IMG/VR virus record: IMGVR_UViG_3300050821_007000
Location: 1 to 34,144 of that record
Length of the DNA stretch: 34,144 bases
Reading direction: 5' to 3' (one strand)
Origin: a virus
Part shown: piece by piece, positions 1,318-31,922 of the stretch
How positions within the stretch are numbered: the first letter of the stretch is position 1
Layout of the letters: each line of letters opens with the position of its first letter
Program-made: the position numbers and the translations under genes
Notes under the pieces: generated by a model
The model's input: only the letters and a program-made list of their open reading frames with translations
Told to the model about the DNA's origin: nothing
Databases searched by the model: none

Positions 1318-2016
1318 ATGACGACCGCCCTCCGCCCACTGACGACCCCGCTCATTGCCTACGTCCGCGTCTCCACCGGGAAGCAGGGCAAGAGCGGGCT
1401 GGGCATCGAAGCCCAGAAGGCGGCGATTGAGGCCTTCGCCGCGACCAACGACCTGACGGTGGTCGATTGGCACTTCGAAGTGGAGACGGGGAAGGGCGCG
1501 GACGCGCTTGACCGCCGCCCCATCCTCGCCGCCGCCCTCCAGCAGGCCCGCAAGGCCAAGGCGGCGGTGGTGGTCGCCAAGTTGGACCGCCTGAGCCGGG
1601 ATGTCGCCTTCATCGCGGGCCTGATGGCGCAGCGCGTCCCCTTCATCGTCGCGGAGTTGGGCTTGGACGCTGACCCGTTCATGCTGCACCTCTACGCCGC
1701 GCTCGCGGAGAAGGAGCGCAGCCTGATCGCCGCCCGCACCAAGGCCGCGCTCGCGGCCAAGAAGGCGCAGGGCGTCAGGCTGGGCAACCCCCGCTGCCAT
1801 GAGAGCGTGGCGGGGGCGCGCGCCGCTCAGAGCGCCAACGCCGACGCCTTCGCCGCCAACGTCCTCCCCATCGTCAGGCAACTGCGCGAGAGCGGGGTGA
1901 CCACGCTCGCCGCCATCGCCGACGCCCTCAACGCCCGTGGCGTCAGGACGGCGCGCGGCGGCGAGTGGCACGCCTCCACCGTCCGCAACCTCCTCGCCCG
2001 GAACCCAGCCCCATGA
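1318..2016 (+). CDS. Small serine recombinase (resolvase/invertase family)
   Basis: 232-aa serine site-specific recombinase that would cut and rejoin DNA through a phosphoserine link. The N-terminal resolvase domain (about 11-150) shows Y-V-R-V-S-T with nucleophile Ser19, the K-L-D-R-L-S-R-D block (88-95) and the [12 protein letters not shown] helix E region. The C-terminus (about 195-230, [12 protein letters not shown] then [12 protein letters not shown]) is the DNA-binding helix-turn-helix of the Recombinase family. It lacks the long zinc-ribbon/coiled-coil region of large phage serine integrases, so a resolvase or invertase role is likelier than integration, which here belongs to the tyrosine integrase. 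Start ATG follows an AAGGAACAGACC leader; the stop overlaps the next ATG (ATGA). Confidence 0.9.
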
Positions 2017-2240
2017 ACCACGCCCAAGCCCTCTGCGCTTTCGCTGAGCGCCTCTACGGTGACCAATGGCAGAGCGTCCTCAGCAGGGCGCTGGGCGTCC
2101 ACCGCAACACCCTCTACCGCCTTGCCCGCGCCGCCCGCGCGGGGAGGGACTACGCCACCGCGCCGCAGTTGCTCGCTGATCTGCGCGCCCACCTCGTCGC
2201 CATCGCCACGGACATGGAACCGTGGGCGACCAACTCCTGA
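2013..2240 (+). CDS. Small HTH-like protein, paralogue of the 5047 gene
   Basis: 75-aa protein overlapping the recombinase stop by 4 nt (ATGA), so probably translationally coupled to it. The central segment [18 protein letters not shown] resembles a recognition helix of a helix-turn-helix fold, and the layout (G-D-Q-W-Q-S, HTH, then A-G-R-D-Y and a C-terminal helix ending in D-M-E-P-W) recurs in the 74-aa product at 5047-5271. It is likely a small DNA-binding regulator; the target is unknown. The recombinase pairing could mean an accessory or regulatory factor, but that is inference. Confidence 0.65.
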
Positions 2241-2547: not shown

Positions 2548-2577
2548 CAACCATCCCCGCATGGTACTGTGCGGGTC

Positions 2578-2603
2578 ACCGGGGCGGCGCTCCAGCCGCC
2601 CCC
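2578..2603 (+). terminator. GC-rich hairpin in the leader of the GHKL gene
   Basis: GGGGCGGC (2580-2587) pairs with GCCGCCCC (2594-2601) around a 6-nt loop, ahead of the AAGGGAAC leader and ATG 2624. There is no T tract, so it is not a standard intrinsic terminator. It could be a rho-assisted stop for the upstream genes, an attenuator or an mRNA-stabilising 5' hairpin for the transcript starting at the motif just upstream. Confidence 0.35.
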
Positions 2604-2623
2604 CGTCTGAAGGGAACAAACCC

Positions 2624-4615
2624 ATGACTGCCAAGCCGGAAACCCGCGAGTTCAAGATCCACCCCCAGCTGCTGTTCGATGTCATCCAGCGGCAGGCTGG
2701 GACGCTGACCAAGGCCCTGTGCGAGGGCGTGATGAACAGCATCGACGCGGGCGCCACCAAGGTGGAGGTCACCCTCACCGACAAGCGCGCCAGCATCGCT
2801 GACGATGGGCGCGGCTTCCCCACCCGCGAGAGCATCGAACTGTTCTTCGAAACCTTTGGCCAGCCGCACCAAGAGGGCGATGCCGTCTACGGCACCTTCC
2901 GCATGGGCCGGGGCCAGATGTTCTCCTTTGGCGTCAACCGCTGGCGCTCTGGCCGCTTCGCCATGAAGGTGGACATCAAGGGTAGGGGGCTGGACTACGA
3001 CCTCACGGAGGGCGGCGAAGACGCAGCGGGCTGCGCCATCGACATCGCCCTCTACAAGCCCCTGAGCCTCCTCCAGCAGCGCGAGATCGGCGACGACCTC
3101 CGCCGCATGGTCCGCTACGTCGCGGTGCCCGTGCTGCTGAACGGGGAACAGATCAACAAGGTGGCCTCCAGCGAGCGCTGGGACTTCGAAGACGAGTTCG
3201 CCTTCTACAAGTTGGGTCAGGGGCGCCTCAGCATCTACAACCTTGGCATCTTCGTGAACGACCACAAGGCCTACAACCTTGGCATTGGCGGCACCGTGGT
3301 CGCCAAGCAGCAACTGCGCCTCAACTTCGCCCGCAACGATGTCCTGAGCGACTGCAAGGTCTGGCAGCGCATCGCCAAGGTGCTGCGGTCGAAGGCCGAC
3401 ACCAACATCCGCGAGAAGCGCGGCGCTCTCTCCGCAGAGGAGCGCGCCCTCCTCGCCCAGCGCCTGCGCTCTGGCGATCTGGGGAACGCGGAGCGTCGGG
3501 ACGCAGCGGTCTTTCAGGACGCGGCGGGGCGCTGGCTGACCATCGACAAGTTGGCGCGGGCGATCAGCACCGGCAACCACACCCTCACCGCAGGCCCCAA
3601 GTCGCCGCGCGGCGAGAAGGTGCAGCGGGCGCACATGGCCCTCGTCCTCAACGAGGCGCATCTGGACGAGTTCTTCCGCGTCGATACGGTGGAGGAGTTG
3701 GTCGCCAAGGTGATCCGCCCCAACGCGGGCTGGTTGCCCACCTTCCGCATCGTGCCGTTCAGCACCCTGATCTCTGATGACGAGAGCGAACGCTGCGAGA
3801 TCATCCCGCCGCAGTCCTACACGCCCGCTGAGGCGGTGGTGATCGAAGTCCTCAACGGTCTGCGGGCGCCTGACTTCTCGCGCCAGCGCAAGATCGTGCT
3901 GGGCGAGAGCGACAGTTTCAACGGCTGGACGGACGGGCGCTCCTACATCGCCATCGACCGCAAGTTCCTGAAGGGGAGGGACATAGGCTCTCCCGCGACA
4001 TGGACCGCCATCGCGCTGTTGCTCTGCCATGAGTACAGCCACGGCGGTCCCTCCAGCGCGACGCACGATCACGGGCCAGAGTTCCACGAACAGTACCACG
4101 ACGGCTCGCGCACGGCGGTGCCGCAGTGGGTCAGCGAGAGCGTCAAGTTGGTGCGCGGCGCCGTGGAGCGGGTCAACGAGCGCGTGGGCAAGAACGCCCT
4201 GCGCTGGCTGGACATGATCGATGAGGCCGCGAAGACGAACGGCTCGCTGGACGAGGTGCTGATCGCCGCCCGCGAGAAGCACGCCCGCCCCGCTCCAGCA
4301 CCGCTCCTCATCGCTGCGGACGCGCCCCGCTCACGCCTGCGGTTCGTGCGCATGGAGGAGGACATGCCCAAGAAGACGAAGGTCAAGGCGAAGCCCGCGC
4401 CCAAGCCGCGCGCGAAGGGCGGCAGCTACGCCGACATCCTGACCGCGCAGGGCTACGCGCGGGTGACGGAGATGGTCAGCGCGGGCTGGCAGCGGTGGGA
4501 GAAGGGCGCGGACCACTGCGTCATCGACACCAAGAACGGCGCGTGGACGCTGACCCGCGAGGGCGGCGAGGCGAAGGGACGCCTGACCCCGTCGCTGGCC
4601 AAGGTGTTCGCCTGA
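2624..4615 (+). CDS. GHKL ATPase fused to SprT-like zinc metalloprotease
   Basis: 663-aa protein; ATG 2624 is chosen over upstream in-frame codons because of the AAGGGAACAAACCC leader. Residues about 15-200 show a Bergerat ATP-binding fold: N box E34-G-V-M-N38-S-I-D-A-G, G1 box D60-D-G-R-G64, G2-type glycine loop G90-T-F-R-M-G-R-G-Q-M-F-S-F-G. The middle (about 200-440) resembles no domain I know and could be a transducer. At 469-488 H-E-Y-S-H, nine residues, then H483-G-P-E-F matches the SprT-type HExxH...HG-x-x-F zinc protease signature. A basic Lys/Pro linker (about 578-600) leads to a small C-terminal module with N-G-A-W-T-L-T. ATP-driven conformational change coupled to proteolysis is an inference; no substrate is known. 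Kinase-type histidine phosphorylation is unlikely, as no H box or receiver is seen. The stop overlaps the next ATG (TGATG). Confidence 0.8.
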   Translation: MTAKPETREFKIHPQLLFDVIQRQAGTLTKALCEGVMNSIDAGATKVEVTLTDKRASIADDGRGFPTRESIELFFETFGQPHQEGDAVYGTFRMGRGQMFSFGVNRWRSGRFAMKVDIKGRGLDYDLTEGGEDAAGCAIDIALYKPLSLLQQREIGDDLRRMVRYVAVPVLLNGEQINKVASSERWDFEDEFAFYKLGQGRLSIYNLGIFVNDHKAYNLGIGGTVVAKQQLRLNFARNDVLSDCKVWQRIAKVLRSKADTNIREKRGALSAEERALLAQRLRSGDLGNAERRDAAVFQDAAGRWLTIDKLARAISTGNHTLTAGPKSPRGEKVQRAHMALVLNEAHLDEFFRVDTVEELVAKVIRPNAGWLPTFRIVPFSTLISDDESERCEIIPPQSYTPAEAVVIEVLNGLRAPDFSRQRKIVLGESDSFNGWTDGRSYIAIDRKFLKGRDIGSPATWTAIALLLCHEYSHGGPSSATHDHGPEFHEQYHDGSRTAVPQWVSESVKLVRGAVERVNERVGKNALRWLDMIDEAAKTNGSLDEVLIAAREKHARPAPAPLLIAADAPRSRLRFVRMEEDMPKKTKVKAKPAPKPRAKGGSYADILTAQGYARVTEMVSAGWQRWEKGADHCVIDTKNGAWTLTREGGEAKGRLTPSLAKVFA

Positions 4616-4799
4616 TGCGCGCCTGCCTTGACGCCTACGGCGCCGACAGCGTCGTCGTGGACCCCGTCCCCTTCATCGATCGCGAGTGCAGGCCGCTTGG
4701 AGCGGCGCTGAGGCGCTTCAGGCGCTGCGGGACGGTCGCACCTACACCGACCAGCGCGGACGCTGGTCGCTCACCCCCATCAAAGAGAGAACCCGATGA
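4615..4799 (+). pseudogene. Frameshifted small gene (SLTP-tail family, copy 2)
   Basis: The start is coupled to the GHKL stop (TGATG at 4613-4617) and reads MRACLDAYGADSVVV, then DPVPFIDREC. Continuing in this frame runs into an implausible Arg/Pro-rich tail overlapping the next gene. In the -1 frame from about 4689 the sequence is QAAWSGAEALQALRDG, RTYTDQRGRW, SLTPIKERTR, ending at TGA 4797-4799 and overlapping the next ATG by ATGA. Coupled start in one frame and coupled stop in another strongly suggest one gene broken by a single indel near 4687-4690. Its tail resembles that of the interrupted gene at 769-964. No slippery heptamer is visible at the junction. Confidence 0.6.
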
Positions 4800-5047
4800 C
4801 CGACGACCAACCCCCCTCCGTGTGGGGCGAGCGTACAACCACCTTCGAAATCCTGTTCCTGATTCAGGAGCCCCGCACCGGGGAGTGGGCTTGGTACAGC
4901 TACCATGAGGAGTTCAAGTCGCTGGAGGCAGCCAAGGACGCCGCCAACGCGGACTACGCCGGGCAGCGGTACGCCATCGTGGAGCGCCGCAACAAGGTGC
5001 TGGTGGATCACGACCCGGCCCGCCGCAGCCGCAAGAAGGCGGCTTGA
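4796..5047 (+). CDS. Hypothetical small protein with basic tail
   Basis: 83-aa protein overlapping the preceding gene by ATGA. Residues 15-40 (TTFEILFLIQEPRTGEWAWYSYHEEFKSL) look like a beta-hairpin, followed by a helix (EAAKDAANADYAG), a strand (QRYAIVERRNKVLVDH) and a strongly basic end (ARRSRKKAA) that could bind nucleic acid. I do not recognise a family. Its stop overlaps the next ATG (TGATG), so the 4615-5271 genes form one coupled block. Confidence 0.65.
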   Translation: MTDDQPPSVWGERTTTFEILFLIQEPRTGEWAWYSYHEEFKSLEAAKDAANADYAGQRYAIVERRNKVLVDHDPARRSRKKAA

Positions 5048-5271
5048 TGACGACCAACGCTGAGCGCGTCGTGCAGATCGGCGAGCGCGTGTGGGGCGCC
5101 AATTGGGCCAGCGGCATGGGCGACCTCACCAAGGTCAACCACCGCACCCTGACGCGCATCTACGCGGCGGCGCAGGCCGGGGAGGAGTACCCCGCCGCGC
5201 GCGGCGTCCTCGCCGCCCTGTACGACTGCCTCGCCGCCGTCGTGGACGATCTGGAACCCTTCAGCCGCTAA
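5047..5271 (+). CDS. Small HTH-like protein, paralogue of the 2013 gene
   Basis: 74-aa protein; ATG 5047 overlaps the previous stop, preferred over the in-frame TTG at 5044. It aligns end to end with the 75-aa product at 2013-2240: G-A-N-W for G-D-Q-W, V-N-H-R-T-L-T-R-I-Y for [15 protein letters not shown] for A-G-R-D-Y, and D-D-L-E-P-F for D-M-E-P-W. The shared core looks like a helix-turn-helix recognition region. The two copies flank the GHKL gene, so the region has probably undergone an old segmental duplication. Likely a small DNA-binding regulator; function inferred. Confidence 0.65.
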   Translation: MTTNAERVVQIGERVWGANWASGMGDLTKVNHRTLTRIYAAAQAGEEYPAARGVLAALYDCLAAVVDDLEPFSR

Positions 5272-5517: not shown

Positions 5518-5835
5518 ATGACCTCCCAGCACAAACTCTTTCAGGCGGCTGAACGCGAGGTGGAGCGCGGCGAGCGCGGTTGGTGGTGGCTGAGTTTCGT
5601 GGACACCGACCGACCTGAGGGCGCGCGCTTCTTGGGCGTCGCCATCGTGCAGGCCTACGGGGTCACCACTGCGGCGATGCTCACCCACGACATGGGAATC
5701 AATCCCGGCGGCGAGGTGGCGGCGGTGCCCATCCCTCCAGACCTCCACCCCCCGCCAGATGCCTGCGACCGCCTGCTGACCCGCGCGGAGGCAGAGGAGG
5801 TATCCCGCGCCTTCTGGTCAGAGCGGTCGCACTAG
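5518..5835 (+). CDS. Hypothetical protein, last gene of left operon
   Basis: 105-aa protein, 10 nt after the preceding stop. The N-terminal half carries E-R-G-W-W-W-L-S-F and G-A-R-F-L-G-V-A-I-V-Q-A, typical of a small alpha/beta fold. The Pro-rich P-I-P-P-D-L-H-P-P-P-D segment (about 71-82) is followed by a C-terminal helix (LTRAEAEEVSRAFW). No family recognised. Its stop overlaps the stop of the convergent primase-helicase gene by 3-4 nt within the palindrome ACTAGT. Confidence 0.6.
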   Translation: MTSQHKLFQAAEREVERGERGWWWLSFVDTDRPEGARFLGVAIVQAYGVTTAAMLTHDMGINPGGEVAAVPIPPDLHPPPDACDRLLTRAEAEEVSRAFWSERSH

Positions 5836-7784
5836 TCGTCTTCTTCAGCCCTCCGCCCCGTGCGGGGGGCTTTTTCTTTGAGCCGCGCCCGGCGCTTGGA
5901 CGGCGGACCCTCCAACTCGACCTCGATGGCTTCCCGCGCGAAGAGGCGGTTCATGGCGTTGCGGAACGCCGCCATCGACACGCCGTGGGCGCTGGGGTCT
6001 TGGGCGAAGAGGGTGGGGGCGTAGGTGCTGCTGGGCTGGTGGCTGACGGGGCGACCCTGGGCGGTGAAGCGGGCCAGAAGCTGGAGGAAGAGCGCGTCCA
6101 CCCGGTCGGCCGCGATCTGCCGGTCCAGCGCGTTGATGGTGGTCTCGCCCTCGAGGACGAACGCGCCCGCCTGGTAGCGCACCATCAGGTCGCCTCCGGC
6201 GGGACCGTAGTTCGCCTTCTTCACATGCAGCACGCGCAGATCGGTCGCAGCTGGGGCGGCGTCCTCGCTGGACGGCAGCGCGAGGTAGAGCCTCGAGCGC
6301 ACGGAGTTGTTCCACGCGGTGGAGCCGGAGAGGCCGGAGCCCGACGAGAGCCCCGCCAGGCTGGGGTGGGCGAGGACGATCAGCGATCCGGCGACGGCGA
6401 CGGCGAGGGCGCCCAGCTTGCGATTGAAGGCGCGGACCAGCGCCCGGTCGTTCTCGTTCGCGCCGTAGACATCGGCCAGGCTGTCGATGATGGTCAGCGT
6501 TGGCTGCCAATCGTCCACCATCTCCCTGAACTCGCCCCATCGGTCTGTGTCCTCGAGCGGTCGCCCCGGCTCGCCCAGCACCAGCACCGCGTCCTCGTTC
6601 GCCAGCGGCCAGAGCTTGAGATCCGCGAAGGAGTCGAGGCCGAGACCGTAGTGCAGCGCGATGCGGTCGAGGCGGCGGTGCAGCTCGTCGCGATCATCCT
6701 CGCAACTGACGTACAGCGCCCGCCCGCGGCGCGGCATGAAGCCCAGCCAGCCCAGACCGGCGGCGGTGGCGCAGGCCAGCTGCAAGGCCAGCGTGGACTT
6801 GCCGACGCCCCCGTCCCCGCCCAGCAGCGTGACGGTGTGCGCGGGGACCAGGCCTTCGACATGCCAGACGCGCGGCGGCACCGGGATCGGCGCGAGGATG
6901 TCAGCCGTGAAGGCGGTGGATCTCACGACCAGGGCGCGGCTCTCGCCCGCATCCGGCAGCGCCTCAGTGAGCCCCTCGAGGTCCGCGATCGACTTGCCCT
7001 GGGTATTCAGGAAGTCCGAAACGTCTCCCTTCGGCGGGCAGTCGGCCCAGAGCGCGCCGAGATCCAGCACCCGCACCCGAGCCGCCACCCCGGCCAGCTG
7101 CGCCGCCACCGCCGCCGCGTGGTCGCGCCCGGCCTGGTCGTTGTCGGCGACCACCACGACATCCGCGCCCTTGAAGTGCTGGTTGAGCTCCCGCTTCCAC
7201 TTTCCGGCGCCGCCGGCGTTGGTCGTGGCCGCCAGCCCGGCGGCGCGCAGGCGATCGACATCCTTCTCGCCCTCGCAGATCCAGATCCTCCGGCCCATGC
7301 CGATGTCTTCGATCAGCTCCGGCAGGCGGTAGGGGACCGGCTTGACGCCGCCCAACTTCCACGACCAGCCGCTGGGATCGTTCGGGTCCGGCTTGCGCTG
7401 CACGAAGGCCTTCGGGACCTTGCGCAGCACCTGGCTGAGGAGGGTCCCGTCCGCGTCGGTGTAGGGGTAGGTGGCGCTGAAGTGCGAGCCGCCGCCGTTC
7501 AGCTTGGGCTTCGGCACCTCGTTCGGGTACTCCTGCCGCAGCCACCGCCAGGCCGCGTCGTGGTCGCCGGGCAGCTGCACCTCGACCAGGCGGACGACGC
7601 CGCCGCCCTCCTTGCCCTCGTTGTCGAAGAAGACGCCCTTCTCGAGGTCGACCGCCAAGCTACCGTTGGTGCCCCAGCGCAGGATCTTCGGCGTGGAGAG
7701 TCGCGGGTTCGGATCGCCGAGGAAGTGCCGGGCGACGGGCTCTATGAGGGAGCGGAGTTCGGGTTCACCAAGGGGGGCGGGCAC
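5832..7784 (-). CDS. Toprim primase / RepA-like replicative helicase
   Basis: 650-aa replication protein with a GTG start. Residues about 30-70 (R-W-G-T-N-G-S-L-A-V-D-L then F-D-N-E-G-K-E-G-G-G) look like a degenerate primase N-terminus without zinc cysteines. A Toprim domain follows, with E171-G-E-K-D and D214-N-D-Q-A-G-R. The second half is a RepA/DnaB-type AAA_25 motor: Walker A G322-G-D-G-G-V-G-K-S-T, Walker B L-T-I-I-D-S-L. The last 70 residues are basic. It should prime and unwind DNA at the phage fork. Such two-domain proteins are common in phages without separate DnaG/DnaB. It lies 27 nt downstream of the RuvC-like gene in the same leftward operon; the stop overlaps that of the convergent gene. 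Confidence 0.9.
   Translation of the reverse strand: MPAPLGEPELRSLIEPVARHFLGDPNPRLSTPKILRWGTNGSLAVDLEKGVFFDNEGKEGGGVVRLVEVQLPGDHDAAWRWLRQEYPNEVPKPKLNGGGSHFSATYPYTDADGTLLSQVLRKVPKAFVQRKPDPNDPSGWSWKLGGVKPVPYRLPELIEDIGMGRRIWICEGEKDVDRLRAAGLAATTNAGGAGKWKRELNQHFKGADVVVVADNDQAGRDHAAAVAAQLAGVAARVRVLDLGALWADCPPKGDVSDFLNTQGKSIADLEGLTEALPDAGESRALVVRSTAFTADILAPIPVPPRVWHVEGLVPAHTVTLLGGDGGVGKSTLALQLACATAAGLGWLGFMPRRGRALYVSCEDDRDELHRRLDRIALHYGLGLDSFADLKLWPLANEDAVLVLGEPGRPLEDTDRWGEFREMVDDWQPTLTIIDSLADVYGANENDRALVRAFNRKLGALAVAVAGSLIVLAHPSLAGLSSGSGLSGSTAWNNSVRSRLYLALPSSEDAAPAATDLRVLHVKKANYGPAGGDLMVRYQAGAFVLEGETTINALDRQIAADRVDALFLQLLARFTAQGRPVSHQPSSTYAPTLFAQDPSAHGVSMAAFRNAMNRLFAREAIEVELEGPPSKRRARLKEKAPRTGRRAEEDD
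5848..5879 (+). terminator. Rho-independent terminator of left operon
   Basis: The 9-bp stem GCCCTCCGC (5848-5856) / GCGGGGGGC (5862-5870), with one T-G wobble, closes a 5-nt loop and is followed by TTTTTCTTT on the + strand. It is a textbook intrinsic terminator for the rightward operon ending at 5835. It lies inside the 3' coding end of the convergent primase-helicase gene. Confidence 0.85.
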
Positions 7785-16815: not shown

Positions 16816-16833
16816 GGCGATGCGTCAGCCACC
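16813..16833. repeat. Inverted repeat next to attP core
   Basis: GGTGGC (16813-16818) and GCCACC (16828-16833) flank a 9-nt loop, directly where tRNA identity ends and overlapping the integrase stop codon. Could be an integrase core-binding dyad or part of a terminator for int. Confidence 0.4.
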
Positions 16834-18018
16834 TACCGCCTTGTTTTCACTGGCGGTTTCTCCAGCCACCTCCTCAGCCTTGTCAATACCTTGACACTTC
16901 GCGACCGCTTCAAGGCCGCGCCGCACGTCCTTCTTCGTCGCCCGCGCGTAGACATCCGTGGAGCGGGGATCGGCGTGGCCCAGCAGCTCCTGCACGATCT
17001 TGATGTCGCCCGTCGCGCGCAGCATCCGCATCGCCGCGTGGTGGCGTAGGTCGTGGGTGCCCTTGGCGCCCCGCGCGCCGGAACTCAGACCCGCCTTGCG
17101 GAGCGCCTGACGCACCGCCCAGATCGCGCTGTTGTACTTCAGCGCCTTGATGCGCCCGCCCTTCAGTTGGCGGAACCAGACCGTGTCCAGCGCCGCCGCC
17201 TCAGCCCGGCTCTTGCGGGCCGCCAGCATCGCGCCGTCCTCAGGCAGCAGCGGCATCCCGAGTTCATCGTCGGCCTTGCGGTCCAAGAGATCGACGCGCC
17301 ACTGCCCATCGACCAGCTTGACCTCAGCGGGGTCGAAGAACATCTCGCCGACCCGCAGCCCGTAGCGCGCCTCGAACCGCGCAAAGTCGCGCCAATGCTC
17401 AGGCAGGGCGGCGTAGAAGCGCTCGACCGCGTCGTCGGCGAAGTCGCGCGCCCAGGGCTTGGGCCGCTTCAGCGCCAGTTCGCCCCACTTGATCGGCGGC
17501 GGCGACACCTCCAGCAGCGCGCAGGCGTGGCGGATGACCGGGCGGATGGTTTCGATGATGTCGCGGTTGACCGTGGCGTTGGCCGGGACGTGGCCCTTGC
17601 CCTTCTGGCCCGGCGCCTTCACCAGCCTGCCGCGCCGTTTCTGGATCGCCTCATGGATGTCGATGGTCCGCAGCTGCGTGACCCGCTTGTCCTTGCCGAC
17701 CAGTTCGACGGCATTGGTCAGTCGCTTGAGACGGAAGACCTCGTCGGTGGGGCGCCCCAAGTCCTTGCCCTTCGCATCCCACCAAGTCGTCGCCGCCGTC
17801 TCCAGCGTGGGTACTTTGGCTGGGGCGCCGGTGATGACGGTGACGACCTCGCCGCGCGCGGCGCGCGCCATATTCAGCGCTTCGGCTTCCTTGCGGGCGG
17901 CCTGGATGGCTTCCGCCTTGCGCTTTGAAGTTGTCTTAGTCTCTCCGTTAAAGGGACGACGGTTGATGTAGAACCGATAGTACCAGTACTTGGAGCCGGT
18001 TGGCTTGAAGAGCGACAT
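16825..18018 (-). CDS. int: Tyrosine integrase
   Basis: 397-aa tyrosine recombinase that would integrate the phage at tRNA-Leu. The N-terminus (about 10-60) is an arm-binding-like domain (YWYYRFYINRRPFNGETKTT), followed by a SAM-like core-binding region. The catalytic domain shows R222 (Y-G-L-R-V-G-E-M), H322-D-L-R325-H, H348 (L-L-G-H-A-D) and the nucleophile Y357 (S-T-D-V-Y-A-R-A). Length is usual for phage integrases. The stop codon is 10 nt from the end of the tRNA fragment, and the second arm-type repeat lies within the last codons, so the gene end doubles as attP. It overlaps the xis-like frame by 145 nt. Confidence 0.95.
   Translation of the reverse strand: MSLFKPTGSKYWYYRFYINRRPFNGETKTTSKRKAEAIQAARKEAEALNMARAARGEVVTVITGAPAKVPTLETAATTWWDAKGKDLGRPTDEVFRLKRLTNAVELVGKDKRVTQLRTIDIHEAIQKRRGRLVKAPGQKGKGHVPANATVNRDIIETIRPVIRHACALLEVSPPPIKWGELALKRPKPWARDFADDAVERFYAALPEHWRDFARFEARYGLRVGEMFFDPAEVKLVDGQWRVDLLDRKADDELGMPLLPEDGAMLAARKSRAEAAALDTVWFRQLKGGRIKALKYNSAIWAVRQALRKAGLSSGARGAKGTHDLRHHAAMRMLRATGDIKIVQELLGHADPRSTDVYARATKKDVRRGLEAVAKCQGIDKAEEVAGETASENKAVGG
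16878..16903 (+). repeat. Arm-type repeat, right of attP core (inside int)
   Basis: CTTGTC-AATAC-CTTGAC-AC (16879-16897) followed by TTCGCG, matching the copy at 16669 at nearly every base in the first 20. It lies in the 3' coding end of int, 63 nt from the tRNA fragment. Confidence 0.6.
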
Positions 18019-21062: not shown

Positions 21063-23998
21063 CAGAGGCCTCGCTGAGCCACGCGGAGCGCTTGGGCTAC
21101 CGTACTGTCAGGAAGGGCGAGAAGGGGCCTGGTGGACGACTGTGCGGCCTTCTGGGCCTGCTCTGCGCGCGACAGCAGCTGCTCCGTCAGATCGACCACC
21201 CGCCCGCCGGCGGCGTGGGGGCGCCGGTGCTTGTTCTTGAAGAAGAGCTGCGTGCCGATCATCTGGCCCGACCCGTCGTCCCAGGTGGGCTTCTTGCGCC
21301 CCAACCGGGCTTGCAGGTCGGGCGCGTAGTAGCTGTCGGCGCCGCCGGTCGGGTCCTCTTGGCCCGCCAGCACCGGGGCGATGGCGGCGAGGATCCTGTT
21401 GTAGGTCGCCGATCCGGGCTGGAGCGCGGCGTAGTTGCGGTTACCGTAAGCCTCGAACTGCCGGGGCGCGGCAGCGATGTCGGTGAGCGGGTGGTTGTCC
21501 TCGAGGGAGCGGTTGCGCATCACCGCCGCCACCGCCTTCCAGCCCTCGGGGGTCGGGTCGCCCTCGGCGGCGGCCATGCGGACCACGGTGTCGATGTCGG
21601 TGGGGGTGACGGGCGGCCCTTTGCCCGTCTTGTTGGCGGCGTCGACGACCTCCTTGACCGCAGGCGCGGCGGCCGCGACCTCCTGGTCGTTCTTCTCGGC
21701 CTCGCGCTGCTGCTCCTCCGGCGTCTGCGGCGTCGTCCCCCAGGTCTGCCCCGCCGCCAGCGCGGCGCGAGGCGCCAGGCGGGCGAGAGCGCCGCGCGGG
21801 CGCAGCGCGGGCCGGAAGGCGCCGCGCGCGCGGGCGGCGCGGAAGGCCTGCTCGGAGATGTGCTCGCCGACCCGCGCCCCGACATATTCGCCGAACGGGC
21901 CGAAGGCCTTGCCCAGCGTGCCGCCGATCACTGCGCCGGTGCCATGCTGGATGAGGCCGCGCCTGAGGCTGGTCAGCAGCCCGGCCGTCTTCGTGCCCTT
22001 GGCCGATGGGGCCTGCATCAGGCGGTCGCCCTCGGCCAGGCGCATCATGTGCGGCCGGTCGGTCGCGAAGACGCTGCGCGCCATCGGCGACGCCATGAAC
22101 TTGTGGATCCGGCCGGGCCTGGCGGCGAGGTTGCCCTGCGGATCGAGCTTGGCGACCGATTGGCGGACGTAGTCGTTGAGCGCCTTGCCGCCCGCTGTCT
22201 CCGGGCCGCCCATGAGGCTGTTGAGGTGGTCGTAAAGCTGGCTGGCCCCGCCGGGGACGGAGAGGTCGTTCTGGTTGATCAGCTGCTTGCCCAGCTGCGA
22301 GGTCACCGCCTCGGTCGTGCCGGACGCGGAGGGCGCGAGGCGCCCGGTCTCGTCCGCAGTCATGGCGTTGCGCAGCGTCTGCACCGCCTTCGACGCCGGG
22401 CCGCGTTCCCAGGTGTCGATGTGGGTTTTGTAGCCCTGGGTCGCCTTGCGCATGGCGGTGGCCACCGCCATGCCATCGCCGCCCGCGAAGTCGCCCGCCG
22501 CTGCGCTGTTGGCGATGTGGTTGTCCAGCGCCTCCTGAAGCGTCCGCAGGCCTTTGATGTCGGAGCCGCTCGCGCCTTTGTAGTGGCTGCCGATCTCCTG
22601 GCGGACGTTCATCAGGTTGTTGGGCGTCAGCTCGTCGTGCGCGGCCAGATCGGCGATCTGGTCGTGCATCGACTTCATCGCCTCGAGCGTCTTGCCGTAG
22701 GTCTTCGGCAGCGTCGCGAGGGAGCCCGGCCCGGTGAGCGGCGGCAGTTGCTGGTCGGACTTGGCGAAGGCGTCCGCGACCGCGTGGTAGAGCCCTCCCG
22801 CGAAGGAGGGGTCGAACTCGCCAGGCAGCTTCCGCATCTGCTGGAAGTTATCGATCGCCCCGTTGTTGGAGCCGATGTAGGCCTGCTCGAGCTGGTCGCC
22901 GAGCGCGGTCGGGTGCGGGGCGCCTGCCCCGGTCAGCTCCCGCGCCTGAGCGCCGATGTCCTGGCGCCAGTCGTTGATGTTGGCGCCCACCGCTTCCATC
23001 TGCTCGGGGTTGGCGGCGGCGCCGGTCACCGTCTGCCGCGCGATCGGCCGGTCGGGATTGATCGCCCGCAGCACGCTCTCGTTCGCGGCGGGTCCGTTGT
23101 AGCCGCGGCTCCTGAAGGTGCTTTTCAACGCGGCCTGCCCGACATCGTCCGCCATCGCCTCGGCCGGATCGATGGCGCTCTGCGCCGCCTTGAAGGCGCC
23201 CCCGGCGCCGCGCGCGGCGTTGGCCGTGCGGGCGACAGCGCCCGGCGCGCCGGTGACGAGACCGGCGGCGCGGATGGGGTAGCCCAGCGGGTTGACGGCG
23301 GCCTCGCCCACGTCGGCCGCCCTGGTGGCGGTCCTCAGCGCCGTGCCCGCGAGACCGGGGACATCCGCCACCAGGCCCTCGCCGCCCGCCACGATCGAGA
23401 GCGGCACTGAGAGATCCATGCCCAGCTGGGCCGGGTTGTGCTTCAGCGTGGTGAGGAAGCCGTTCCTGGTCAGCCAGCGGTCGTGCACCGCCTGCCCGGC
23501 GGCGTTGATCGCCGCCTGATCCTGCGCCTTCACCTGAGGCGTGCCGCCGTAGACGCCCAGCTTCGACAGCGCGCCCACGCCAAGCTGGTTGATGGCGCCG
23601 ATGGTCGAGGGGAGGTTCTTCGGCTCCAGCGACTCCATCGTTCCCTGGATCGCGCCGACCACGCTCGGCACGAAGTTATGCGCCGCGCCCGCGAGAACCT
23701 TGGGCATCGACAGGTCTTCAGGCGGGGGCGGGGGCGCCGCGCCCCGCGCCCCGACCGGCGCGTCGGACTTGGGCGGCGGCGGCGGACGCGGGTTGCGCGC
23801 CTGGCTGTGCAGGCGCGGCGGACCCAGCGAGCGGGTGGGCGGCGGCGGCGCCGATGCTGACGCCTCGATGTCCGCGTCGGTCGGCATGTTCTTCAGCGCG
23901 GTGAGGGGGTCGTCGCCGCCGCCGCTGGGCGGCCCGCCGCCGATGTCCGCGTCGGTCGGCATGTTCTTGAGAGCGGTAAGCGGATCGTCGTCCGCCAT
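21062..23998 (-). CDS. Large virion protein with C-terminal SleB-type hydrolase
   Basis: 978-aa protein. Residues 4-19 and 29-44 are identical 16-residue repeats (DDPLTALKNMPTDADI), followed by a Pro-rich region. The long middle (about 90-760) is Ala/Gly-rich and helical, like internal virion or ejection proteins of podoviruses. At about 800-920, V-V-R-M-A-A-A-E812-G-D-P, A-V-A-A-V-M-R-N-R and W-D-D-G-S-G-Q-M-I-G-T-Q-L-F-F resemble an SleB/Hydrolase_2 cell-wall hydrolase, with E812 a possible catalytic glutamate. It probably enters the cell wall with the DNA and locally cuts peptidoglycan. Start and stop are coupled to both neighbours. Confidence 0.75.
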   Translation of the reverse strand: MADDDPLTALKNMPTDADIGGGPPSGGGDDPLTALKNMPTDADIEASASAPPPPTRSLGPPRLHSQARNPRPPPPPKSDAPVGARGAAPPPPPEDLSMPKVLAGAAHNFVPSVVGAIQGTMESLEPKNLPSTIGAINQLGVGALSKLGVYGGTPQVKAQDQAAINAAGQAVHDRWLTRNGFLTTLKHNPAQLGMDLSVPLSIVAGGEGLVADVPGLAGTALRTATRAADVGEAAVNPLGYPIRAAGLVTGAPGAVARTANAARGAGGAFKAAQSAIDPAEAMADDVGQAALKSTFRSRGYNGPAANESVLRAINPDRPIARQTVTGAAANPEQMEAVGANINDWRQDIGAQARELTGAGAPHPTALGDQLEQAYIGSNNGAIDNFQQMRKLPGEFDPSFAGGLYHAVADAFAKSDQQLPPLTGPGSLATLPKTYGKTLEAMKSMHDQIADLAAHDELTPNNLMNVRQEIGSHYKGASGSDIKGLRTLQEALDNHIANSAAAGDFAGGDGMAVATAMRKATQGYKTHIDTWERGPASKAVQTLRNAMTADETGRLAPSASGTTEAVTSQLGKQLINQNDLSVPGGASQLYDHLNSLMGGPETAGGKALNDYVRQSVAKLDPQGNLAARPGRIHKFMASPMARSVFATDRPHMMRLAEGDRLMQAPSAKGTKTAGLLTSLRRGLIQHGTGAVIGGTLGKAFGPFGEYVGARVGEHISEQAFRAARARGAFRPALRPRGALARLAPRAALAAGQTWGTTPQTPEEQQREAEKNDQEVAAAAPAVKEVVDAANKTGKGPPVTPTDIDTVVRMAAAEGDPTPEGWKAVAAVMRNRSLEDNHPLTDIAAAPRQFEAYGNRNYAALQPGSATYNRILAAIAPVLAGQEDPTGGADSYYAPDLQARLGRKKPTWDDGSGQMIGTQLFFKNKHRRPHAAGGRVVDLTEQLLSRAEQAQKAAQSSTRPLLALPDSTVAQALRVAQRGL
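23867..23914. repeat. Direct repeat, copy a, encoding the 16-residue N-terminal motif
   Basis: With 23942-23989 this forms a 48-nt direct repeat 75 nt apart. The first 26-27 bases are identical and later changes are largely synonymous. It duplicates DDPLTALKNMPTDADI at the N-terminus of the 978-aa protein. Confidence 0.75.
23942..23989. repeat. Direct repeat, copy b
   Basis: Second copy of the repeat at 23867-23914; encodes residues 4-19 of the 978-aa virion protein. Confidence 0.75.
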
Positions 23999-26900
23999 CA
24001 GTACGCTCCCCCGACGTAGCGCAGCGCTCCACCGCCGAGGCCTGGGTGCCCGTTAGGACCGGGCTCGCCCTGCTCGAGCATCTTGCGCCATTGCGGGTCC
24101 GTGCGATGCGCGGCGTACTGCTCGGCGATGCTCTGACCGCCGCCCTTCGGTCGGTAGTAGATCCTCGGCAGCATCGCCTGTTCGTTGTCGTAGCGGTCGG
24201 CGCTGTCCGCCTTCCAAGACTGTAGGGCGCCCTGCTCGGTGCCCCAGAGGGCATGGTGCGCTTGCCGGTACTGCTGGAAGTCCAGCTGCTTCTCGTTGCG
24301 CACCTGCATCTGCGAGAGGATCTTCAGGGCCGCGCCCTTGTTGGTCTCGAGCGATGGCAGCACCTCGGCCAAGGCCTCCATCGAACTCGCCGCTGGATGG
24401 TCGCCTCGCGAAGCCGCTTGGCCCAGATAAACGGCCAGCTTGTCCATGACCTGCTTGGCGTCGCCGGCCTGCTCGAGCCCCTCGAGGGGCGGCAGGCCGA
24501 AACCCTTCAGGAGCCGGTTGGCGAACTGGGCGGCCTGCACCGTGGCACTGTCGCCGGGACCCGTCGCCAGGAGCCCGCTCTCAGGCCCGGCGGCGATGGC
24601 TTGAGCGTAGGTGCTGAGCGCCTCGCGCACGTAGGGCGCCGATTCAGGATCGCCAGCTTGGATGTCGTTGGCCTTCGCAGCCCGCTCCTCAGCGGCCTCG
24701 AAGCCCTTCTCGCCGCCTTCGCTCGCCCTCAGCAGCGCCAGCTTCTCCGGCACTGGCATGCTCGGGTCGAGGCGCGGCGCGCCGGGGCCGAGTTGGGTGG
24801 CGAAGTTCTGCGCCATGTAGGTCTTGCCGCGCGAGCCGGGGGCGATGCCGAGCGTGCCCGTGTCGTAGTCCGGCTTGAAAGCGTCCTCCTGCTGCGCCGC
24901 CACGGCGGCGGTGGCCTGCGAGCCGATCCCGGGGGCCTGGCCGCCCGCTGGAGGCGCGGCAGCGGGAGCGCCGCCTTGGCCACCTTGGCCACCCTGTTGG
25001 CCTTGCTGCCCGCCCGCGCCCTGCCACAGGCTCCAGACGGGCTCGTAGTGGAACTGCTGGTTGCCCACGGTGACGGTCTGCTGGCCGGGGCCGCCCGCGC
25101 CAGGCACGGCGCGGAAGCTGCTGCGCATATCCGCCGGCAGCAGATTGGTCGCGGCCTGGATGTTCTGGAGCTGCGCACCGCTGAGCGAGGCTTCGCGCCC
25201 TTGCTGCTGCATGTAGCTCTGCGCACCGGCGTTCAGGCCCTGCGTGAGCGCCACCAGCGGGTACTTGGTCGGCGCCGCCAACATGCTGGTGACCGCCGAG
25301 ATGAAGGGGATCAGCTGGTCGCGGTTCCACTGGTGGGTCTGCGGGTTGTAGCCCGCCATGCCCGCGACCGCCTCGAACGGCACGGCGAGGGCGTGCGCGG
25401 CGGCGCCGAGGATCCCGCCGAAGCCGCCCTGGTGCGCCGTCGCGGCGGCGTGGGCGCCATCTGGCGTCGACGGCTGGCCCTGACCGCCCTGAGCCGCTGC
25501 CGCGAATCCTGGACCCGCTTCATGCTGGACCGCGCCGGGGGTGGCTGGATTGCCGGCGGCGTCGGTCGTCGGCAGCGGCGGCCCACCGATGTGCTGGACC
25601 GGGCGCGGGGTGGTGGGGTCCGCCGGATCAGCGACTGCGGGCGGCGGCGCAGGCGGCGAGACGCCCGCGCGGCTGAAGCCGCCCAGGTTGGGCGCGGTGG
25701 AGGGCATGCCGCTGGCCGCAGCGGCGCTGGGCGTGCCTTGGCCGAGACCGGCGGCGGCATCGATGTCGGAGACGGGCGCCGCAGCGGCGCCGAAGCCCGA
25801 GATCGCCGGCGCGGTGGACGGCATGCCGGTGGCGGCCGCAGCGGCCAGCGAGGCGGGCGTCAAGGGGATGTCTGGCGAGACGCGGCCGGTGTCGGGCGTG
25901 AAGCCCAAGCCTGGAGCGGCAGGCCGATGCGGCGGGGGCGCCCTGCGCGCCGGGGCGATGGTGCGCCCTGGGCCAGCCGTGAACGCGCCTCGCATCTGGG
26001 CCTCTGTCGCGGCCTGCGAGGCCGCTGGTGCGGTCGCAGCTGAGGCTGGCGCCGCCGCTGGGCGACCGGCTGGCGCGGCGGCGGTCTGTGGCGGCGGCTC
26101 CTTCATGCCAGCGGCGATGTTCGCGTCCATCGCGCGGTTGGCGGCGTCGATTGCGGGGTGGGGACCGCGGGCATAGTCGCCGAGACCCTTGGTCATCACG
26201 TAGCCGAAACCCGCCGGCGGGTTCGTTTCGAAGAGCCGTTCGCTGAATTGGTCGTCGAGCGTGGGCGCGGGTCGGGGCGGCGGCTTGGGAGGCGGCGCTG
26301 CGGGAGTATCCGGCGCGTCGGGCGGCAGCGAGTAGCCGTCGCCAATGCCCAGCAGCTCGCCGCCATCCTGCTTGCCAATCCGCCCGCCTCGAGCGGCGAA
26401 CATCGCGGCGATCTTGGCGACATCCATGATGTCGCTCATCGTCTGGTCGCCGCCGCCGCCCTGCTTGGGCGGCTGGGCGACAGCGAGCGAGGCGCGCGGG
26501 GTCTCCTCGGGGATGTCGAGGCCCGGCCCGTGCCCGTAGGGGTCCGTGTCGCCGCCATCGGCGTAGCCGACGCGCCCGCCGCGCTGGAGCATCAGGAACG
26601 GCAAGAGGCTGGCCATGCCGCTCGCGCCGGCCCCGATGCCAGCGCCGACGCCAGCCATGCCAGCCCCGGCTGCCCCGGCGCCGCCGAGAAGCCCGGCGAG
26701 GCCGCTGCCGACGCTGCCGATCGCCTTGCCCGCGCCGATGAGGCTGCTGACATCTCCGGCCGCGCCCGCCGCCTGGCCGAGTAGGCCGCCGCCCCCGCCG
26801 CTGGGCGCGGCTGCGGTCGCCAGCTTGGGCGTGGCCATGCCCTGGGTCGGGATGTTCAGGCCGGGGCCCTTCGGGGCGTAGGGGTTGTCATCGCCGCCGA

Positions 26901-28467
26901 GCCCGCCGCCGTCTTGGCGCGCGCGGATGAAGCCGCCGTTGGCCTCGCCGGCGGCGTAGGCGGCGTCAAGGCTCTGGTTGGGCGTCGAGGTCGGCGCGAC
27001 CACGGTCGGGTCGTCCATGTGCTCAGACGCCTTGTAGGTGGGTGACCACTTCTGGTTCCCCAGCCAGGAGCCGGCCTTGTCGGCATCGGTCGCGAGCGTG
27101 TTGACATCGCCCGCCATCGAAGCGGCCTGGTCGAGCGCGCTCTTCTGCGGCTGCTCAGGCGGGTGTGCGACTTGCAGCGCGCCGATCGGCAGGGTGGCCT
27201 GCGGCACGTAGCCGGCGGCGCCGCCGTGCGGCGCGCCGGTGGCGCTGCCGCCGTAGAGCCCGGCGCCGCCGAAGCTGGGCCCGTACATCTGGGCCTGGGC
27301 CTCGAGCAGTTGGGCGATGACCATCGGGTTGACGCCAGACGGGTACGCGCCCCACTCCGACATGCCGCCGCCCGCCTGCCGCGCGCGCCGCTCTTCGCCG
27401 TGGTTGTCGTTGGCCGCCAGCGCGAAGCCGCCCGCAGCGGCGTCATCGGTGGCGCGCTTGTAGTCCACCGTCTTGTAGCCGCCCGCTTCACCGACTGCTT
27501 CGGGATGTTTCCGCTCGACCTCCTGGGCCGACATGCCGATCCGGGTGGTCGGATCGCCGCGGTAGCGGAAGCGGTAGATGTTGGCGCCGTCGAAGCCCTT
27601 GCCGATCGGCTCCATGTCCTCCTTCAGGCGTTCGTCGGAGAAGAGGCCGCCAGGCTGCGTCGAGGTGGTGGTCGAGCCCGACAGCGCGCCCGTCCCCTCG
27701 GCGATGTTCGCCAGGAACTGCGCCGTCTGGAACGGGTAGGACTGCTGTTGCAGGAACTGGTTGTAGAGCGCGCTGAGCCCCGCCTGCGAAGTCTGCTGCT
27801 CGACCTGGCCCGCGCCCAGCTGCGCCTGCGCGCCTTCCAGCGCGGCGCCCTGCGCGCCCGTCCCCAGCCCGGCCAAGGTCTGGCCGGTCTGCTGGAGCGC
27901 GGCGCGGTTAGCCTGCGCGGCCCCGAGGCCGACGCCCTGCTGCTGCTGCGCGGCGGCGAGCGCCTGCTGGTAGGCGTCCGACGCGATGCCGCTGTAGAGC
28001 TGGCCACCCGCGAGTTCCTGCTGGCCTTGCAGCACCGCCGACGCGATGCCAGAGCGGTCGCCGCCGAAGTAGCCCTGCGCCATCGCGTTGCCGGTCTGGC
28101 CAGACATCGCCTGCTGGTTCTGCTGGTTGACCATCGCCTCGGTCGAACCCAGCACCGTCTGCAGGTACGGGTTCATGTAGGCGCCGGTGTCGAGCGGCTG
28201 GGCGTTGACCGGCTGGGCCCCCGCGAGCGCGAAGCCGGTTCCAGCTTGGAAGTAGGGCTGCGCCATCCCGGCGGCGGCGTTGGTGTTCTGGATGCCGGAG
28301 GTCTGGGTCGACGTCAGCGGCGCGACGAAGGCGTTCGGGTTGGTCGAGTACTGCTGGAACGGGGTCTGCGCGACCTGCTCGGCGGTGGCGTTCACCGAGT
28401 TGTAGCGGGCCAAGACCTCAGGGGGGATCTGGACTTGCGAGGAGGTCTGAGAGGTCTTGCCGCCCAC
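23998..28467 (-). CDS. Very large virion protein with internal S74-like chaperone segment
   Basis: 1489-aa protein from a GTG start. Residues 1-265 are Gln/Ala-rich helices with frequent Q-Q-Q and N-terminal Q/T/S repeats. At about 276-345, S-D-E-R-L-K-E-D-M-E-P-I-G, Y-R-F-R-Y-R-G-D, I-G-M-S-A-Q-E-V-E-R-K-H-P-E-A-V and V-D-Y-K-R-A-T match the peptidase S74 (intramolecular chaperone) domain, normally C-terminal and cleaved off tail spikes. Here more than 1100 residues follow: Gly/Ala-rich repeats (D-x-P-Y-x-x-G-P-G-L-x-I-P occurs twice, G-G-R-x-G twice, P-S-T-A-P twice), Pro-rich linkers, then a helical C-terminus. Probably an internal or ejection protein or a long tail component. Start overlaps no gene; the stop is coupled (TGATG). 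Confidence 0.75.
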   Translation of the reverse strand: MGGKTSQTSSQVQIPPEVLARYNSVNATAEQVAQTPFQQYSTNPNAFVAPLTSTQTSGIQNTNAAAGMAQPYFQAGTGFALAGAQPVNAQPLDTGAYMNPYLQTVLGSTEAMVNQQNQQAMSGQTGNAMAQGYFGGDRSGIASAVLQGQQELAGGQLYSGIASDAYQQALAAAQQQQGVGLGAAQANRAALQQTGQTLAGLGTGAQGAALEGAQAQLGAGQVEQQTSQAGLSALYNQFLQQQSYPFQTAQFLANIAEGTGALSGSTTTSTQPGGLFSDERLKEDMEPIGKGFDGANIYRFRYRGDPTTRIGMSAQEVERKHPEAVGEAGGYKTVDYKRATDDAAAGGFALAANDNHGEERRARQAGGGMSEWGAYPSGVNPMVIAQLLEAQAQMYGPSFGGAGLYGGSATGAPHGGAAGYVPQATLPIGALQVAHPPEQPQKSALDQAASMAGDVNTLATDADKAGSWLGNQKWSPTYKASEHMDDPTVVAPTSTPNQSLDAAYAAGEANGGFIRARQDGGGLGGDDNPYAPKGPGLNIPTQGMATPKLATAAAPSGGGGGLLGQAAGAAGDVSSLIGAGKAIGSVGSGLAGLLGGAGAAGAGMAGVGAGIGAGASGMASLLPFLMLQRGGRVGYADGGDTDPYGHGPGLDIPEETPRASLAVAQPPKQGGGGDQTMSDIMDVAKIAAMFAARGGRIGKQDGGELLGIGDGYSLPPDAPDTPAAPPPKPPPRPAPTLDDQFSERLFETNPPAGFGYVMTKGLGDYARGPHPAIDAANRAMDANIAAGMKEPPPQTAAAPAGRPAAAPASAATAPAASQAATEAQMRGAFTAGPGRTIAPARRAPPPHRPAAPGLGFTPDTGRVSPDIPLTPASLAAAAATGMPSTAPAISGFGAAAAPVSDIDAAAGLGQGTPSAAAASGMPSTAPNLGGFSRAGVSPPAPPPAVADPADPTTPRPVQHIGGPPLPTTDAAGNPATPGAVQHEAGPGFAAAAQGGQGQPSTPDGAHAAATAHQGGFGGILGAAAHALAVPFEAVAGMAGYNPQTHQWNRDQLIPFISAVTSMLAAPTKYPLVALTQGLNAGAQSYMQQQGREASLSGAQLQNIQAATNLLPADMRSSFRAVPGAGGPGQQTVTVGNQQFHYEPVWSLWQGAGGQQGQQGGQGGQGGAPAAAPPAGGQAPGIGSQATAAVAAQQEDAFKPDYDTGTLGIAPGSRGKTYMAQNFATQLGPGAPRLDPSMPVPEKLALLRASEGGEKGFEAAEERAAKANDIQAGDPESAPYVREALSTYAQAIAAGPESGLLATGPGDSATVQAAQFANRLLKGFGLPPLEGLEQAGDAKQVMDKLAVYLGQAASRGDHPAASSMEALAEVLPSLETNKGAALKILSQMQVRNEKQLDFQQYRQAHHALWGTEQGALQSWKADSADRYDNEQAMLPRIYYRPKGGGQSIAEQYAAHRTDPQWRKMLEQGEPGPNGHPGLGGGALRYVGGAY

Positions 28468-31509: not shown

Positions 31510-31922
31510 CAGCTGAAGCTCACGCTGACGGTCTGGCCGGTGCCGGGGACGACCACCAGGCCGAGGTTGAAGGGCAGGTTGATGAAGTACGAGCCCACCG
31601 TCTGCGGGATCAGCGCCAGCACCGGCGAGGTTGCCGCCGCGCTGTTGCTGTCGACGAGCGCGCCCCCCGTGCTGCCGGCGACGGTGACGTTGACGTAGGC
31701 GACCCGGCCCGAGCCCTGCTTCAGCAGCTGCGCGCCGCTGGCGGCGGCGATGCCGCTGCGCGACTGCTGGCCGTTGACCGCCAGGTAGGTCTGCGCCGCC
31801 TGGGCGATGTTCGAGGCGACGTGCTGCACCGCCGTCAGCAGATCCGACAGCGACGCCCCGGCGGGCCCCTGACCGTGGCCAGGGTGGGCGCGGGGGATGT
31901 TCTGGTTCTCCTGAAAGGTCAT
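31509..31922 (-). CDS. Small virion-type protein
   Basis: 137-aa protein whose ATG and stop are coupled to both neighbours (TGATG). After a polar N-terminus, residues about 24-70 are helical (L-S-D-L-L-T-A-V-Q-H-V-A-S-N-I-A-Q-A-A-Q-T-Y), and the rest is beta-rich with small residues (V-A-Y-V-N-V-T-V-A-G-S, L-G-L-V-V-V-P-G-T-G-Q-T-V-S-V-S-F). Resembles small accessory tail or head-surface proteins; no family assigned. Confidence 0.6.
   Translation of the reverse strand: MTFQENQNIPRAHPGHGQGPAGASLSDLLTAVQHVASNIAQAAQTYLAVNGQQSRSGIAAASGAQLLKQGSGRVAYVNVTVAGSTGGALVDSNSAAATSPVLALIPQTVGSYFINLPFNLGLVVVPGTGQTVSVSFS

Follow-up and report, generated by a model that had tools for sequence, protein, structure and literature searches.

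An Hsp90-type ATPase joined to a predicted Wss1/Spartan-like metalloprotease in phages, plasmids and conjugative elements

What would a mobile element gain from a single protein that seems to combine an ATP-driven clamp with a zinc protease? The question is raised by a 34,144-base virus record of IMG/VR (called the window here, at its full length), for which an initial annotation had described a 663-aa fusion of a GHKL ATPase with an SprT-like protease in a phage small-gene operon and had proposed an ATP-gated protease that acts on host DNA-bound proteins or serves in defence or counter-defence. The other genes of the window are those of a temperate phage, namely a serine recombinase, a CI-like repressor, a RecE-like exonuclease, a tyrosine integrase, a Toprim/AAA primase-helicase-like protein, a tail fibre and an S74-peptidase-type structural protein, and the assumed phage origin is borne out by the exonuclease, the repressor, the integrase and the tail fibre. 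Recombinases of both the serine and the tyrosine (integrase) type occur on the record (1318-2016 (+), 16825-18018 (-)). The 650-aa Toprim and AAA_25 protein (5832-7784 (-)), which is probably the phage primase-helicase, is convergent with the transcription unit of the fusion gene. Further along, a 1489-aa structural protein (23998-28467 (-)) has its S74-type chaperone domain near the N-terminal end and a second protein (31922-34006 (-)) shows a weak endosialidase beta-barrel match.

Architecture of the fusion protein

The 663-aa ORF lies exactly where it had been placed, with the ATG at 2624 and the stop codon at 4613-4615. Its GC content by codon position (0.64/0.45/0.91) identifies it as the coding frame, whereas a 568-aa antisense ORF at 2576-4282 only displays the shadow of this pattern (0.90/0.44/0.64) and was rejected as a real gene. 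The proposed coupling to small HTH and other proteins turned out to be weak, as the HTH match of the upstream 91-aa ORF is sub-threshold and the three small ORFs that follow the gene have no recognised domain. In the AlphaFold2 model of the protein (mean pLDDT 86), the basic Lys/Pro linker and the small C-terminal module that had been noticed before reappear as a disordered stretch and a confident beta module (Table 1). The latter is present only in the two closest phage relatives and, searched alone in phage records, gave no match.

Table 1. Coordinates of the fusion gene, its mapped parts and the adjacent small ORFs in the window
Feature	Position	Strand	Basis or remark
Hsp90-like ATPase / zincin fusion protein, 663 aa	2624..4615	+	
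Bergerat (GHKL) ATP-binding domain, residues 1-145	2624..3058	+	Pfam HATPase_c_3; fold match to Hsp90/MORC
N-box E34..N38	2723..2737	+	invariant, 48/48
G1 box D60-D-G-R-G-F65	2801..2818	+	D60, G62 48/48; G64 47/48
G-loop / ATP lid G90-TFRMGRG-Q98	2891..2917	+	G90, G95, Q98 48/48
Transducer / large middle subdomain, residues 146-265	3059..3418	+	alignment with Hsp90 middle domain
Catalytic-arginine loop N234-F-A-R237	3323..3334	+	R237 48/48, N234 46/48; hhalign to HtpG LPLNVSRE
Small middle subdomain, residues 266-395	3419..3808	+	structure model; inside the 11-381 span aligned with TRAP1/Hsp90
Predicted Wss1/Spartan-like zincin (metalloprotease) domain, residues 396-517	3809..4174	+	model of 386-545, fold matches
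HEYSH, residues 469-473, zinc ligands and catalytic Glu	4028..4042	+	conservation
HGPEF, third zinc ligand H483 and F487	4070..4084	+	H483 42/48, F487 44/48
Disordered Lys/Pro-rich linker, residues 562-599	4307..4420	+	pLDDT under 50
Small all-beta C-terminal module, residues 601-663	4424..4612	+	confident in structure model
Upstream 91-aa ORF	1965..2240	+	sub-threshold HTH match; relative downstream of gene in L006
Downstream small ORF	4796..5047	+	coding-like GC pattern
Downstream small ORF	5044..5271	+	relative beside gene in L006
Downstream small ORF, phrog_13485 (function unknown)	5518..5835	+	
Terminator-like hairpin and T run, end of rightward gene set	5847..5881	+	chance level in region about 2

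The ATP site had been described as a complete-looking Bergerat fold, and all of its elements are present: E34, N38, D60-D-G-R-G and the G-loop at residues 90-98. The Pfam model HATPase_c_3 matches with 33.5 bits at a cut-off of 25, and E34, N38, D41, D60, G62, G90, G95, Q98 and R237 are invariant in all sequences of a 48-member alignment of viral and cellular homologues. The assignment as a GHKL ATPase is correct as far as the superfamily motifs are concerned, but too narrow, since alignments and structure model indicate that this half is an Hsp90-type N-terminal plus middle domain with a catalytic-arginine loop (LNxAR) and goes beyond a bare GHKL domain. Residues 11-381 of the model match the N and middle domains of TRAP1/Hsp90 with Z 19-20 over 337-350 aa at an rmsd of 6.6-7.7, a value which suggests that the domains are shifted relative to one another, and MORC3 matches residues 11-267 (Z 16.8, rmsd 3.9 over 248 aa). 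Using hhalign, the alignment with E. coli HtpG continues through the middle domain, where LRLNFARND pairs with LPLNVSREI; taken by itself, the middle domain of HtpG reaches a score of 30.0 versus a maximum of 18.4 in 30 shuffles. In the same test the MutL transducer alone did not match the family; MutL aligns better than HtpG at the ATP site, but the alignment ends there, and the annotation of Acinetobacter members as MutL-like is unsupported beyond this site. R237 corresponds to R380 of yeast Hsp90, an arginine in contact with the gamma-phosphate of ATP.

Besides the Bergerat N domain, the protein shares the lid, the middle domain and the arginine loop (LNxSR in Hsp90) with Hsp90, HtpG and TRAP1. 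In contrast to these chaperones, the putative zinc protease sits at the position of the Hsp90 C-terminal dimerisation domain, and sequence similarity to HtpG stops before the zincin. None of the HSP90 family models in Pfam or NCBIfam matches at the thresholds used; the window protein appears to resemble Hsp90 in its ATPase part and yet falls outside the curated Hsp90 families. The top viral fold matches are an unnamed protein, viral Hsp83 and rIIA proteins. T4 rIIA is likewise a phage GHKL protein, but lacks the zincin motif and matches in sequence only at the ATP site (74 columns). A weak fold match was also seen between residues 386-545 and the C-terminal domain of TRAP1 (4iyn chain A 588-707; Z 5.8, 87 aa). 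This likeness to the very domain whose place the zincin takes may be due to chance, and we do not claim homology.

For the C-terminal half, the zinc protease signature HEYSH-x9-HGPEF begins at residue 469, in agreement with the initial annotation. The pattern HExxH-x8..10-H-x3-F appeared in 7 of 200,000 shuffles of the window protein, and a chance motif is ruled out by this frequency together with the conservation in homologues. Folded alone, residues 386-545 (pLDDT 90) place the HEYSH region in a predicted zincin fold with Wss1 and Spartan among the best neighbours. The best match among solved structures is the DNA-protein-crosslink protease Wss1 (Z 7.8, rmsd 3.0, 97 aa, second aligner); minigluzincins match at Z 6.5 (selecase) and lower and Spartan at Z 5.5 with 19% identity. 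The Z near 8 for Wss1 is modest and the resemblance to Spartan moderate, but nearly all top rows are zincins and the model has its metal site in place. Foldseek alone gave weak matches to the protease domain, led by the putative Zn peptidase 3c37 (E 0.036) and BepA, and a profile of the domain, compared with the sequences in PDB and with E values as high as 5 allowed, retrieved human Spartan only (both matches, E 0.7). The Pfam check proposed for both halves supported one of them: HATPase domains were the only hits in the window protein, with none for the protease region, and the SprT-like model did not match it, although this model weakly matches 4 of 46 members (best E 0.0023). Likewise, no PHROG family was found for the protease region. 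Based on the model, the C-terminal half most probably folds as a zincin similar to Wss1, minigluzincins and Spartan. It has the HExxH and the third histidine in common with Wss1 and Spartan, and we take HGPEF to be as in Spartan, whereas the ATPase in the same chain sets the window protein apart from both.

Conservation and loss of the zinc site

In 42 of the 48 homologues, the three zinc ligands (H469, H473, H483) and the catalytic residue E470 have all been kept. In combination with the invariant ATPase residues, this is a stronger proof of real sites than the shuffle test. With a zincin fold predicted for the HEYSH region and its H and E residues conserved in most homologues, neither of the two objections named beforehand against the initial annotation holds. 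A comparison of the window protein with two approximately 70%-identical phage relatives yielded dN/dS values of 0.28-0.29 for the ATPase part and 0.35-0.44 for the zincin part, and values below 0.5 in the middle region as well; the low values indicate that both halves are under purifying selection.

Nevertheless, the zinc site was lost at least four times, namely in large phages (L035/L039), Firmicutes (L053/L054), Variovorax (L101) and an archaeon (L107), and the ATPase was kept each time. Proteolysis can therefore not be the function of every member, but the retention of the site in most sequences across distant lineages makes it probable that it matters in the majority. Three large-phage members (L035, L036, L039) retain a fold-sized C-terminal region in which every zinc ligand is gone; a C-5 cytosine methyltransferase gene is located nearby. 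In pairs of protease-dead phage copies, the former protease domain still shows low dN/dS values (0.15 and 0.21). Moreover, two versions consist of the ATPase only (L037, L083), and three (L042-L044) carry a different C-terminal part. In these phage versions (4992-6206) a short ATPase part is followed by an unrelated region that by eye resembles a SAM-dependent methyltransferase, for which Pfam gives no support. Repeated loss of the zinc site, ATPase-only versions and a swapped C-terminal part argue that the clamp is the constant part of the family and the protease its usual but non-obligatory effector. In three Pseudomonas conjugative elements (L097, L099, L100) the frame is broken by a single-base deletion near codon 270-280. 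Programmed frameshifting was considered, but as L099 and L100 share one deletion and L097 has another, decay or sequencing error is the likelier cause.

A gene family of mobile elements

The fusion had been described as unusual for a phage gene, but it is no phage peculiarity: its relatives are spread over large phages, integrative conjugative elements and plasmids, both conjugative and haloarchaeal, and 202 plasmid records together with many genomes rule out a phage-only gene. In the plasmid records, identified by tblastn, both domains are covered in most distinct lineages, including Pseudomonas, Xanthomonas, Variovorax, Aeromonas, Burkholderia and haloarchaea; the Acinetobacter matches end at residue 367, but the zincin motif is nevertheless present in these proteins. 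A pattern scan added 28 viral loci, many of them on phage contigs of 100-480 kb, and a second scan 63 loci in genomes, among them Paenibacillus, Sporomusa, Armatimonadetes and Anaerolineae bins. Taken together, the relatives range from proteobacteria and Firmicutes to haloarchaea, and most are annotated just as 'ATP-binding protein'. Evenly drawn genomes hardly contain the gene, with a single match, a fragment, in 397 other sampled Pseudomonadota genomes and none in 298 further genomes of the phylum to which a Paenibacillus copy belongs, a rarity that leads us to class it among mobile-element genes. In a tree built from the ATPase half, the viral sequences mostly fall together, as a well-supported set of 21 rows unites all 19 viral rows with 2 cellular ones.

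The gene neighbourhoods are rich in DNA-processing functions. In what we take to be integrative conjugative elements, the recurrent order is DUF2857, a presumed replication gene, the AcaB/PFL_4669 family, SSB, the fusion gene and topoisomerase III. Topoisomerase III neighbours the fusion gene in 16 loci, Paenibacillus included, and SSB in several. On P. syringae-type plasmids the gene lies between virB11 and virD4, and the Pseudomonas cerasi plasmid p58T3 has three copies (L060, L061, L062), all with VirB11 and VirD4 as neighbours. The next gene in large phages is an NAD-dependent ligase, and some of these phages also have terminase-like genes upstream of the fusion gene; in others, a DNA methyltransferase lies nearby. 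Such neighbourhoods reveal the module in which the gene travels and are silent on what gets cut. On an Acinetobacter plasmid, an M48-family metallopeptidase gene (L017, 5087-5827) is located directly upstream, and PAPS-reductase-family genes are found close to the gene on three large plasmids (L002, L011, L013), one of which also encodes DndB (L011).

Possible function and its alternatives

ATPases of the GHKL/Hsp90 type dimerise on ATP and close, and Wss1 and Spartan cut proteins on DNA, with Wss1 working together with the Cdc48 ATPase. The reading that we tentatively prefer is a clamp-protease, encoded by mobile elements and gated by ATP, that clears host proteins from the element's DNA. By analogy to Hsp90, MutL and MORC, the N-terminal ATPase would dimerise and close on ATP and reopen on hydrolysis; the closing clamp would capture a substrate and position or gate the C-terminal Wss1/Spartan-type protease. 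The likeliest substrate would be a protein that is bound to or obstructs the DNA of the element during entry, establishment or replication, for example a host restriction or silencing protein. The earlier idea of an ATP-gated protease is supported by the two conserved sites and the predicted zincin fold, whereas we infer the gating itself as well as the target, be it host DNA-bound proteins or defence. Contact with DNA is suggested by relatives and neighbours; a DNA-binding domain was not recognised in the window protein.

The nearest described designs are ArdC and VcSduA. ArdC of R388 is an antirestriction protein of a mobile element with a Spartan-like zincin domain that acts at DNA entry and is needed in the recipient for conjugation (PMC7213743). 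In place of the ATPase it has an ssDNA-binding domain, one that Pfam does not find in the window protein, and its third ligand is Glu. VcSduA (type I-D Shedu) has the same layout of N-terminal GHKL ATPase, clamp-like middle domain and C-terminal effector, but here the effector is a PD-(D/E)xK nuclease (PMC12137116). In addition, phages carry SprT-like and ArdC-like proteases (PMC7824862), and polyvalent proteins of phages and plasmids fuse zincin domains to other activities (PMC5512222), in a survey whose text does not mention GHKL or Hsp90. Such fusions and proteases are therefore already known; new, as far as the literature searched is concerned, which covered few subscription papers and preprints, is the union of an Hsp90-type/GHKL ATPase with a Spartan-like protease in one protein.

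Several of these observations also fit other explanations. The structural proximity to Wss1 and Spartan as well as the adjoining topoisomerase III and SSB genes are consistent with DNA-protein-crosslink repair of the element's own intermediates, in which a relaxase, topoisomerase or recombinase covalently attached to DNA would be removed and the Hsp90-like ATPase would act in cis as Cdc48 does for Wss1. However, many carriers (large phages, haloarchaeal plasmids) have no relaxase nearby and protease-dead lineages persist, and we consider such a repair function rather unlikely. Given that the fusion of a GHKL part to an effector is well established as a design for defence (PMC12137116) and that several copies reside on large plasmids amid conflict genes such as DUF262 and DndB, the GHKL part might instead sense foreign DNA or a phage structure and trigger cleavage of a host or invader protein, as is thought for the nuclease of VcSduA. 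This role in defence or superinfection exclusion seems improbable to us: the window protein matches no defence model in PADLOC, which speaks against a known defence protein, two relatives have weak matches only, in the GHKL region, and the conserved place in a conjugative DNA-processing module, or beside the ligase of large phages, is easier to reconcile with a function that serves the element itself.

A comparably low probability applies to a regulatory or chaperone device, in which the Hsp90-like clamp would remodel a client and the protease would be dispensable or only remove this client, e.g. a repressor as with ImmA/IrrE proteases. The constant presence of the ATPase despite the repeated loss of the zinc site, the stand-alone ATPase versions and the finding that ArdC mutated in its protease site (E229A) still supports conjugation (PMC7213743) are in line with such a device, but the zinc site has been kept across distant lineages by most of the family. 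Returning to the clamp-protease, its broadest form, which we regard as doubtful, would be an Hsp90-type ATP-driven protease, undescribed in the literature searched, with an N/M clamp and a Spartan/Wss1-like protease in C-terminal position. Phages, plasmids and conjugative elements, bacterial as well as archaeal, would keep it for removing or degrading host proteins on DNA that enters the cell, and it would have been converted repeatedly into protease-dead clamps.

To our knowledge, all other bacterial ATP-dependent proteases rely on AAA+ motors. A covalent link between an Hsp90-type ATPase and a protease would, if true, represent a different coupling of ATP to proteolysis, and the fusion would offer a direct test bed for Hsp90-type closure acting on a bound client. 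Natural protease-intact and protease-dead relatives make the roles of the two halves separable. Finally, the place beside SSB and topoisomerase III in conjugative elements hints at a so far unnoticed step in the entry or replication of DNA, which bears on host range and plasmid spread.
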